A stretch of DNA of 64,000 bases from contig NZ_CP104203.1 of assembly GCF_025244725.1 (NCBI RefSeq), forward strand, positions 806,001-870,000, in the 5' to 3' direction. This stretch comes from Chryseobacterium oranimense. Its GTDB lineage: Bacteria > Bacteroidota > Bacteroidia > Flavobacteriales > Weeksellaceae. Of this stretch, positions 15,482-18,313 are shown in pieces; positions within the stretch are counted from its first letter, which is position 1, and each line of letters starts with the position of its first letter. Made by a program: the position numbers and the translations under genes. Below the pieces are notes generated by a model. That model searched no databases and was not told the DNA's origin. It saw only the letters and a list, made by a program, of their open reading frames with translations.

Positions 15482-15489
15482 TATTTTTG
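15482..15489 (+). promoter_or_regulatory. Promoter -7 box of the SMR gene
   Basis: TATTTTTG matches TAnnTTTG exactly and lies 15 bp before ATG 15505. It overlaps the TTG codon at 15487, which rules against using that TTG as the translation start. Confidence 0.55.
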
Positions 15490-15504
15490 CAGAAAATAAG
15501 CTTT

Positions 15505-15840
15505 ATGGGACGCAGTTATATATTTCTTGCCTTAGCAATTATATTCGAGATTATAGCAACCACTTTTCTTAAGAAATCTGAAGAATTTTCAAAGCTTTGG
15601 CCGTCTGTGGTTACTGTGATAGGATATGCTTCCGCTTTTTATTTCCTGAGCCTTACCCTTCGCCATATCCCTGTAGGAATAACGTATGCTATATGGTCCG
15701 GAGTAGGTATTGTTTTTATAACCATGATTGGAATTGTTGCATTTAAGCAGGTTCCGGACCTTCCGGCCATCATAGGAATTCTTTTGATCGTTATCGGGGT
15801 AATTGTTATTAATGTGTTTTCAAAAATGGGAACACACTGA
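15505..15840 (+). CDS. Small multidrug resistance (SMR/EmrE-type) efflux transporter
   Basis: 111 residues and four membrane helices, the standard SMR length. The start GRSYIFLALAIIFEIIATTF contains the membrane glutamate of helix 1 (Glu14) that binds protons and cations in EmrE. GITYAIWSGVGIVFI in helix 3 and the C-terminal IGVIVINVFS helix are also typical. It should exchange protons for lipophilic cations, guanidinium-type compounds or quaternary ammonium across the inner membrane as a dimer. The promoter box at 15482 fixes ATG 15505 as the start. Confidence 0.92.
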   Translation: MGRSYIFLALAIIFEIIATTFLKKSEEFSKLWPSVVTVIGYASAFYFLSLTLRHIPVGITYAIWSGVGIVFITMIGIVAFKQVPDLPAIIGILLIVIGVIVINVFSKMGTH

Positions 15841-15891: not shown

Positions 15892-16326
15892 CTATTTTAA
15901 AATATGGATAGTGGATTGAAAGAAATTAAACAGGAATATCCTGTCGTAAAATATTTCAATACTGTTCTCGGCAATAAAATCTTTATGCCGGAACGTGTTG
16001 CTAACAGTATCTTCTTCCACAAAAACAAACCAGACTTCTTTAAGCTGTTTCTGTCTTTTAAATTCTTCAAAAGCATTCCAGTCGTATGGTGTGGTATGGT
16101 TAAGGTTATAGAATAAAATCCCTTTTTTAACACCGTTTTCTTCCACAATGTTAATAGGATGCTGAATGTAATTTAAAATACTGATCGGTGACTGATAGCA
16201 CTCCGCAAAGTGGTGAAGATCAATCATCTGTATCACCTTTTCTTCCTGTTGGGATTCTGTCATATAAAAACATTCTGAGGTTATTTCCTGTGTAAGTTCC
16301 TGAAAAACGGCTAATTCCATAAGCAT
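15892..16326 (-). CDS. Uncharacterised protein divergent from two-component operon
   Basis: 144 residues, not recognised. No signal peptide or membrane helix. It is a mixed alpha/beta soluble protein, rich in acidic and aromatic residues (KEVWFVFVEED, IEIFYDRIFLFNFF). It starts at ATG 16326 or 16320, just beside the 16374-16452 repeat array that separates it from the LytS/LytTR genes, so it could be co-regulated with them. It converges on the SMR gene with an AT-rich dyad (15838-15860) between. Confidence 0.65.
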   Translation of the reverse strand: MLMELAVFQELTQEITSECFYMTESQQEEKVIQMIDLHHFAECYQSPISILNYIQHPINIVEENGVKKGILFYNLNHTTPYDWNAFEEFKRQKQLKEVWFVFVEEDTVSNTFRHKDFIAENSIEIFYDRIFLFNFFQSTIHILK

Positions 16327-16373
16327 TAAAAATTCATGGCAAAGAAAGAAATAATAGCATTGCGTGAATTTTT

Positions 16374-16452
16374 TTTTATACGAAACCGCTCTTATTTTAT
16401 ACGAAATCCAACCTGGTTAAAATTGGTATAAAAAATAACAGGGTTGGTATAA
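16374..16452. promoter_or_regulatory. Candidate LytTR operator: two pairs of half-sites with 21-bp period
   Basis: TTTTATACGAAA occurs at 16374-16385 and 16395-16406, exactly 21 bp apart. TTGGTATAA occurs at 16423-16431 and 16444-16452, again 21 bp apart. The second motif is nearly the reverse complement of the first (TTATACCAA against TTATACGAA). Direct repeats with a 21-bp period are the known binding layout of LytTR regulators such as YpdB and YehT. The last site ends 28 bp before the -7 box of the kinase gene. Confidence 0.6.
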
Positions 16453-16480
16453 TATTATAAAGATTTCCTGCGTTATTCTC

Positions 16481-16488
16481 TATTTTTG
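16481..16488 (+). promoter_or_regulatory. Promoter -7 box of the two-component operon
   Basis: TATTTTTG matches TAnnTTTG exactly, 26 bp before the kinase ATG and directly downstream of the repeat array. Confidence 0.55.
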
Positions 16489-16514
16489 TTTCTAATTAAG
16501 ACTTACGGAATATA

Positions 16515-17591
16515 ATGAAATACGGACCATCAAAATTTAAGGAAACACTTGTCATGGATTTTCTGGTTGAAGATCGGTTCAAAGTCCGCAGACATCTGTT
16601 ATTCCTGGTTTTCTTTTTCTTCCTGATGTACAGCGCAAGGTTCTGGCATTGGTATTCCGGGCTTTATCAGTACTATGTTTTGTTTTTTGTATATGTTGTC
16701 CTGATTACGATGGTATACATTAATATATATGTCCTGGTGCCGAAGTTCTTCTTTAAAACAAGATATATTACCTACCTCATTTTGCTGGTGATCATGGGAG
16801 TTGCAGGGCTAAACATGATAAGCTATGGTTTTAAATTTTTCTTCGGAGATTTCAGAGTAGAAAATATTAAAAAGGAGAGTGAAAAAGCAAATCTGTATGA
16901 AGGCATATTGATGTGCATTCCGATTATCATGACAACAACTACCGTAAAACTCCTTCAAAAATGGATTACCGATACCAAAAGACTAACGGAACTCAATAAT
17001 CTCACCTTACAAATGGAGCTGAATGAACTCCGTAATCAGATCAATCCTCATTTTCTTTTCAATATGCTGAACAATGTGAAGGCGCTTACAAGAACGGATC
17101 CTGAAAAAGCATCAGCAGTTATTGTTAAGCTTTCGGAATTCTTGAGATATCAACTATATGAAAACGGAGAAGAGAAAACCCTGCTTATTTCAGAGATCGA
17201 TTTTTTATCCAATTTCCTTAACCTTGAAAAAATACGAAGGGAAAATTTTTCCTTTACTATTAATGCAGAAACAGAAAACAGAACGATAAAAAGTACTTTT
17301 ATCCCGCCGAATTTGTTTACTACTTTTGTTGAGAACGCGGTAAAACACAGTCTCGATATCAGCAGCAAAATGTGCTATGTGAAAATAGATATAAGCGTTG
17401 AAAACAAAATCCTTCATTTTACCTGCACCAATTCTATGAATCCGAGTCTGACTGTATCCAACGCCAACTACAGCGGACTGGGACTGGCCAATATTAAAAG
17501 AAGACTCGAGCTTCTCTATGGAAATACTTTCAGCCTTGAAATTACTTCCGGAGAAAAAGAATATACCGTTAATTTAAAAATTCCTGTATGA
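16515..17591 (+). CDS. Sensor histidine kinase, LytS/YehU (HisKA_7TM-less, His_kinase) type
   Basis: 358 residues. Four predicted membrane helices lie in residues 25-150, followed by a coiled linker (about 155-172) and the His_kinase domain. The phosphorylated histidine is H179 in NQINPHFLFNMLN. The ATP-binding domain follows, with the N-box in PNLFTTFVENAVKHS and a GLGLANIKRRLELLYG lid region. It has no recognisable sensor domain outside the membrane, so the signal is likely sensed in or at the membrane. Its stop overlaps the regulator start by 4 bp, so the two are translationally coupled. Confidence 0.93.
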   Translation: MKYGPSKFKETLVMDFLVEDRFKVRRHLLFLVFFFFLMYSARFWHWYSGLYQYYVLFFVYVVLITMVYINIYVLVPKFFFKTRYITYLILLVIMGVAGLNMISYGFKFFFGDFRVENIKKESEKANLYEGILMCIPIIMTTTTVKLLQKWITDTKRLTELNNLTLQMELNELRNQINPHFLFNMLNNVKALTRTDPEKASAVIVKLSEFLRYQLYENGEEKTLLISEIDFLSNFLNLEKIRRENFSFTINAETENRTIKSTFIPPNLFTTFVENAVKHSLDISSKMCYVKIDISVENKILHFTCTNSMNPSLTVSNANYSGLGLANIKRRLELLYGNTFSLEITSGEKEYTVNLKIPV

Positions 17592-18313
17592 ACTGTATTA
17601 TAGTAGATGATGAGCCGCTGGCAAGAGCAGAAATGCGTTCACTGATCAATGAAACCTCAAAGGTCGAAATCCTGGGGGAATTTTCCAATGCTCCTTCAGC
17701 ACTGGACTTTCTTAAAACCAATGAGGTAGATCTTATTTTTCTGGATATCGAAATGCCGATGGTGACCGGATTGGAATTTGCCGAAATGCTGCCCAAAAAA
17801 TCACTGATTATTTTTACCACAGCCTATTCCCAATATGCTTTAAAAAGTTACGAACTGGAAGCTGTAGACTACCTGCTGAAACCTATAGAGGCCAAAAGAC
17901 TGGAAAAAGCCATAGAGAAAGCTATTCTCTACACGGAGCTTTTGTCTAAGGATACTGTGAAAAATACGGTAGAGTCCAATACGGCAGATTTCTTATTCAT
18001 CAAGGCAGACCGGAGGTTCTATAAGATTAGTTTTTCAGATATTAAATTTATAGAAGGACTGAAAGACTATGTGGTCATCCATACCCGTCAGCAAAAACTT
18101 ATCACAGCTATGAACCTCAAAACCATCCACCAGAAAATCTTCAGGGAAACCTTTCTCCGGGTAAGCAAATCGTATGTGGTTAATCTCGATTTTATTGATT
18201 CATTTGACAATCATAATATTTATATTGATGAATTCGAAATTCCTATAGGTGAAGTATACAGATCCGAATTTTTCACAAAATATGCCGGCGGAACTCTGAA
18301 TTCGGAAGGGTAG
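17588..18313 (+). CDS. LytTR-family response regulator
   Basis: 241 residues. The receiver domain spans 1-120 with phospho-acceptor D53 (LIFLDIEMP), the acidic pair in IVDDEP near residue 5, and lysine in DYLLKPIE. The LytTR DNA-binding domain is at about 135-238 (FLFIKADRRFYKI, FLRVSKSYVVNLDFID). It pairs with the kinase encoded immediately upstream. LytTR proteins bind direct repeats about two helical turns apart, which matches the repeat array at 16374-16452, so autoregulation is a reasonable inference. It ends 1 bp from the convergent methyltransferase. Confidence 0.94.
   Translation: MNCIIVDDEPLARAEMRSLINETSKVEILGEFSNAPSALDFLKTNEVDLIFLDIEMPMVTGLEFAEMLPKKSLIIFTTAYSQYALKSYELEAVDYLLKPIEAKRLEKAIEKAILYTELLSKDTVKNTVESNTADFLFIKADRRFYKISFSDIKFIEGLKDYVVIHTRQQKLITAMNLKTIHQKIFRETFLRVSKSYVVNLDFIDSFDNHNIYIDEFEIPIGEVYRSEFFTKYAGGTLNSEG

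Follow-up and report, generated by a model that had tools for sequence, protein, structure and literature searches.

In the genome of Chryseobacterium oranimense, the genes of a sensor kinase and a LytTR response regulator diverge from an uncharacterised gene, and the region between them (16321–16514; coordinates refer to the window, the whole stretch of 64,000 nucleotides that was analysed) contains two pairs of repeats of opposite orientation. Which protein binds these repeats, and which of the two flanking genes do they control? An earlier note on this DNA took them for the regulator's own operator and suggested that, through their orientation, they may also drive the divergent gene.

Genes flanking the repeats

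The gene at 16515–17591 (plus strand) is an open reading frame for a LytS-type sensor histidine kinase with a Pfam His_kinase domain (PF06580, 82.4 bits) and, judged by hydropathy, a hydrophobic N-terminal part. It overlaps by 4 bp the gene of the response regulator (17588–18313, plus strand), in which a Response_reg domain (PF00072, 81 bits) and a LytTR domain (PF04397, 58.4 bits) were found; all three scores lie above the cut-off. The locus thus encodes a PF06580 kinase beside a receiver–LytTR regulator, that is, a LytS/LytTR two-component system. No Pfam match to 5TM-5TMR_LYT, the sensor type of BtsS and LytS, was obtained in the sensor region of the kinase at E-values up to 0.001, where just the hydrophobic N-terminal stretch was seen. 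The regulator scored 153.2 on the NCBIfam equivalog PRK11697 (246 required for a BtsR orthologue) and 124.7 on PRK14084 (375 required for a LytR orthologue).

The divergent gene had been described as an open reading frame of 144 amino acids at 15892–16326. A gene is indeed present there, but its start is more likely at 16320, since this position is conserved in relatives. On the minus strand it would therefore encode a protein of 142 amino acids (15895–16320, the stop codon at 15892–15894 lying outside these coordinates), whose start and sequence are conserved in 30 aligned homologues. Neither a Pfam nor an NCBIfam family matched this protein. Its AF2 model had a pLDDT of 89.8, and a fold search returned a weak similarity to XisH and restriction-endonuclease-like proteins (Z up to 7.8, lowest Foldseek E-value 1.9e-3). 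These matches are too weak to assign a function; no conserved PD-(D/E)xK signature was visible by eye in the alignment, and no relative of the protein was found in viral contigs.

In 50 of the 71 named loci described below, a gene for a 326-aa protein lies near the 142-aa gene, directly downstream of it where the order was inspected. The 326-aa protein has an apparent signal peptide and an outer-membrane-like sequence, has no Pfam match, and has relatives with 37–48% identity in the cassettes of three other genomes (G053, G273 and G040). No match to it was found in our genome, nor in the C. oranimense and BLS98 loci, so the divergent operon is here reduced to the 142-aa gene. At 15487–15840 of the window, convergent to the 142-aa gene, lies a gene of the SMR (small multidrug resistance) family, at the place where many relatives have the 326-aa OMP-like gene.

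Repeats, promoter-like boxes and their conservation

When the letters of the window were read directly, TTTTATACGAAA was found twice, at 16374–16385 and 16395–16406. This left pair has the format TTATACGAA-N12-TTATACGAA (starts at 16376 and 16397) and is accompanied by a pair of opposite orientation, TTGGTATAA-N12-TTGGTATAA (starts at 16423 and 16444), the start-to-start period being exactly 21 bp in both. The left pair belongs to the minus strand and reads TTCGTATAA toward the divergent gene, with its promoter-proximal half-site at 16376–16384 and its distal half-site, 21 bp away, at 16397–16405. In the right pair, on the plus strand, the distal half-site is at 16423–16431 and the proximal one at 16444–16452. 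The coordinates, number and spacing of the half-sites given in the earlier note were thus right, as was its remark that the second pair is nearly the reverse complement of the first; one base differs (TTCGTATAA versus TTGGTATAA). LytTR sites are described as direct or inverse repeats of 9–11 bp with spacers of 11–13 bp (PMC4847170), and both pairs, as 9-N12-9, fall within this known format (PMC2766830, PMC4847170).

The right pair ends, as had been reported, 28 bp (16453–16480) before a perfect TAnnTTTG, TATTTTTG at 16481–16488 on the plus strand, the putative −7 box of the kinase–regulator operon. What had been missed is that the left pair too is followed, on the minus strand and again after 28 bp (16348–16375), by a −7-like box, TTTCTTTG at 16340–16347 (consensus TTnCTTTG), which would belong to the promoter of the divergent gene. 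The intergenic layout is thus mirror-symmetric, and both gaps are conserved.

The repeats are rare. With up to three mismatches allowed, TTATACSAA-N12-TTATACSAA matched twice in the window, both times at this locus and with no mismatch (0.41 expected), and two matches were reached in 8 of 100 shuffles of the window. A pattern search of the whole 4.37-Mb genome gave two exact matches, again both at the locus, and when the 28-bp gap and the −7 box were also required, these two were the only matches with up to two mismatches. As candidates for further targets, three sites with three mismatches were found, versus one for the reversed control, and we took them as background. This genome encodes 11 LytTR domains, and no such pairs were present upstream of nine of the ten other LytTR genes. 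Near the remaining system a different motif was seen, TGATACGAA-N12-TGATACGAA, also with a 21-bp period, at positions 582755–582784 and 587494–587523 of the genome (G000:C1, L135), in front of two operons that lie near a further kinase/LytTR pair. The −7-like boxes of this motif stand at about 19–20 bp, compared with 28 bp at the locus studied here.

Related genomes were scanned for such pairs, as the earlier note had proposed. Of 60 genomes of the genus, 34 contain an exact TTATACNAA pair, and an orthologue of the regulator (at least 76% identity) is encoded by precisely these 34. Among the matches listed in the 60 genomes, 62 of 63 map here, compared with five matches over all genomes for the reversed control. 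One extra exact site (G025, position 3596291) falls inside an open reading frame of 569 amino acids and was taken as chance. The 142-aa gene occurs in the 34 genomes and in G051 and G053, always adjoining the regulator and never separated from the cassette. Across the order, 14 of 296 scanned genomes had the exact module, and all 14 are among the 19 with a close homologue of the regulator.

A lack of conservation in orthologous intergenic regions had been named as grounds for abandoning the operator. Both pairs were kept, with at most two mismatches per pair, in all 71 named loci chosen by the divergent protein alone, and they recurred beside LytTR homologues down to about 50% identity. In 69 of the 71 loci both pairs were accompanied by both boxes at 27–29 bp, and not one of 7100 dinucleotide-preserving shuffles of these regions contained both pairs. 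The loci come from Chryseobacterium, Epilithonimonas, Myroides, Paenimyroides and one record labelled only Flavobacteriaceae, and those closest to ours are from Chryseobacterium oranimense and Chryseobacterium sp. BLS98. The sets of 60 genomes and 71 loci share some genomes and are not independent of each other, and as all loci share ancestry, their counts are not counts of independent events. The repeats are far beyond chance, and the conservation of the layout across Flavobacteriales suggests an operator code for this LytTR regulator family.

Which distances are fixed and which drift was followed in 44 loci. With ties broken toward 28, the gap between the left pair and its box is 28 bp in 42 loci (27 and 29 once each), and between the right pair and its box 28 bp in 40 and 27 in four; in the named loci, the left gap is exactly 28 bp in 70 of 71. 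Without tie-breaking, the best box on the left lies at 27–29 bp in 43 of the 44 loci (uniquely in 36), mostly with one mismatch, and on the right in all 44 (uniquely in all), with boxes perfect or near TAnnTTTG, while base shuffles place the best box there in at most 8 of 44 loci. A sigma-A −7 box is therefore found downstream of the pairs at a fixed distance; in Chryseobacterium-type loci the left box has T for A in its second position. The distance from pair to pair varies freely, from 4 to 75 bp, which points to two independent sites and not to one four-part complex. Pairwise identity is 82–93% in the half-sites, partly by construction because they were located by best match, 41–59% in the spacers and 33–48% in the 28-bp stretch.

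Proposed control of the two promoters

We consider it highly probable, from sequence and position, that 16321–16514 is a bidirectional, mirror-symmetric LytTR operator–promoter region through which both promoters are activated. The phosphorylated regulator would bind each pair of 9-bp half-sites (TTnGTATAA, N12) as a head-to-tail dimer; the right dimer would activate the kinase–regulator operon, a positive autoregulation, and the left one the divergent 142-aa gene as a single dedicated target. In Flavobacterium the sigma-A box TAnnTTTG occupies positions −12 to −5 (PMC9723704). On this scale the half-sites would occupy about −49 to −41 (proximal) and −70 to −62 (distal), and each dimer, counted from the start site of its own promoter, would extend from about −70 to −41 and adjoin RNA polymerase as an activator.

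The target promoters would carry a −7 box and, in most cases, lack the −33 TTG motif. A TTG 16–24 bp upstream of the −7 box was found in only 7 of the 44 loci on the left and 9 on the right, so that these promoters look activator-dependent; in the sil system, activation by the LytTR regulator SilA requires both repeats and their exact spacing (PMC2766830). Taken together with the repeat format, this makes activation of both promoters by the phosphorylated regulator likely. The divergent promoter is deduced mainly from its conserved position, because of the T in its box, and the fact that each pair lies 28 bp from a box of its own direction specifically supports control of both genes. The two suggestions of the earlier note, an operator of the regulator itself and an effect on the divergent gene, thus both gained support, the former also from the perfect coincidence of the sites with the LytTR orthologue in the 60 genomes.

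Activation as opposed to repression is judged here from the position of the sites only. The regulator might bind the same sites and repress both its own operon and the divergent gene until a signal relieves it, which position alone would allow, and the perfect −7 box on the kinase side could fire unaided. The sites, however, stop 28 bp short of the −7 box and leave the core promoter uncovered, the −33 TTG is missing from most of these promoters, and SilA, a LytTR activator, works through site pairs upstream of its promoter (PMC2766830); we therefore regard repression as improbable. It is very unlikely that all four half-sites serve the kinase–regulator promoter alone, with no control of the divergent gene. 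Most loci do have an imperfect divergent box, as noted, yet the left pair is oppositely oriented and keeps exactly 28 bp to that box in 70 of the 71 named loci, whereas its distance to the right pair, and hence to the kinase promoter, is not kept; in addition, in none of the 60 genus genomes searched is the divergent gene found apart from the cassette.

Since binding of the LytTR protein at this place is predicted, a different, unlinked transcription factor could also be imagined on the repeats. This seems less likely still, given that 9-N12-9 direct repeats are the LytTR format, that the sites occur in those of the 60 genomes that have the LytTR gene and are missing from the others, and that these sites also border other LytTR cassettes with otherwise unrelated genes. 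The region is AT-rich, which could favour repeats arising by chance or as an artefact of a leader or terminator, but their absence from all 7100 shuffles and their conservation over several genera make the probability of this negligible. All half-sites, moreover, lie upstream of the predicted start sites and would not be transcribed, which speaks against a leader or terminator.

Related cassettes and known LytTR systems

Beside the LytTR homologues that were examined, with identities down to about 50%, the two-pair layout recurs next to other divergent partners. The studied cassette belongs to type A, which also includes more distant copies in G051, G053 and G180 (regulator 55–58% identical) and in G315 (68%), and in some of these one half-site has decayed. 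In a second group (G016, G040, G105 and G245, the last a genome of the Flavobacterium family), the partners are a large secreted receptor and then a smaller protein; in G245 the two were identified as a TonB-dependent receptor and a DUF4249 protein. The divergent operon of G198 was read, from the starts of its protein sequences and not from a family search, as TolC–HlyD–RND efflux, and is a candidate for a signal-controlled efflux system. In G273 the kinase–regulator pair is followed by an OMP-like gene, and the divergent gene is uncharacterised. The gap to the box is 27–29 bp in these cassettes, the boxes of one side being weak in G198 and G273. Site-bearing regulators share the LytTR-domain residues R[VI]SKSY and, in most cases, MN[LI]KTI, both absent from the ten other LytTR paralogues of our genome. 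They clustered in a regulator tree, which did not establish a single origin or one clade.

Some particulars of these genomes may be added. In G198 (L183, 3163–6001, reverse complement) the efflux-like operon diverges from the kinase/LytTR pair and is accompanied by a perfect copy of the two-pair operator. In G040, a species without the studied cassette, two divergent genes (L185, 576–1592 and 1856–2425) encode a product related to the 326-aa OMP-like protein, and a second short secreted protein; a similar LytTR-type site pair lies between them, several kb from a LytTR operon. In G016 (L193, 6638–7027) a second short receiver-like open reading frame of 129 amino acids (MNCIIVTQDFLIEKS...), possibly a decayed duplicate, lies between kinase and regulator.

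With some confidence, less than for the locus itself, we propose that TTATACNAA-N12-TTATACNAA-N28-(−7 box) is a general operator code of a large Flavobacteriales LytTR subfamily, usually as mirror operators through which expression of the regulator would be tied to that of a single dedicated envelope operon on the divergent side (OMP-like, TonB receptor with DUF4249, or RND efflux).

The E. coli regulators BtsR and YpdB have target genes that encode transporters and are located away from the regulator genes. In the agr P2–P3 region of S. aureus, the LytTR regulator AgrA has direct-repeat sites between two promoters that diverge, and the operon of the regulator itself is transcribed from one of these. 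The genes and the phylum are different there, and the comparison concerns the layout. The E. coli systems BtsS/BtsR (YehU/YehT) and YpdA/YpdB, as presented in the available parts of PMC4847170 and PMC5552118, likewise consist of a LytS-type kinase and a LytTR regulator, YpdB has a direct-repeat site, and each system has dedicated targets, one of them the main one. The YpdB motif given there, GGCATTTCAT, is unrelated to TTATACNAA, and those parts describe no mirror operator that includes the regulator's own promoter (PMC4847170, PMC5552118).

The streptococcal sil locus is similar in layout, to which the comparison is confined: the DR1/DR2 sites of SilA lie between divergent operons as direct repeats with a 21-bp period (10-bp repeats, 11-bp spacer), one pair for each of the two divergent promoters of the intergenic region, and the targets are few and near the regulator (PMC2766830). 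It differs in that its divergent operons comprise transporter/autoinducer and bacteriocin-like genes, its host is Gram-positive and the regulator's own promoter, P1, lies outside the divergent promoter pair (PMC2766830). Already known, then, are the type of regulator, the 9-N12-9 format and, from sil, a LytTR site pair for each of two divergent promoters. Among the open papers searched, we found no operator for any Bacteroidota LytTR regulator. Within this scope, the TTATACNAA code, its constant 28-bp register and the recurrence of the mirror layout next to envelope operons of different kinds appear to be new for Bacteroidota.

Flavobacterial genomes can carry many LytTR regulators, whose targets could be predicted directly from a sequence code that stands in a fixed register to the promoter; if the mirror-operator code holds, regulator and target could be matched by sequence alone. 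For several cassettes that nothing else links, the code suggests roles in the envelope and in export, and the uncharacterised families of the 142-aa and 326-aa OMP-like proteins would gain a regulatory home and a testable route of induction.
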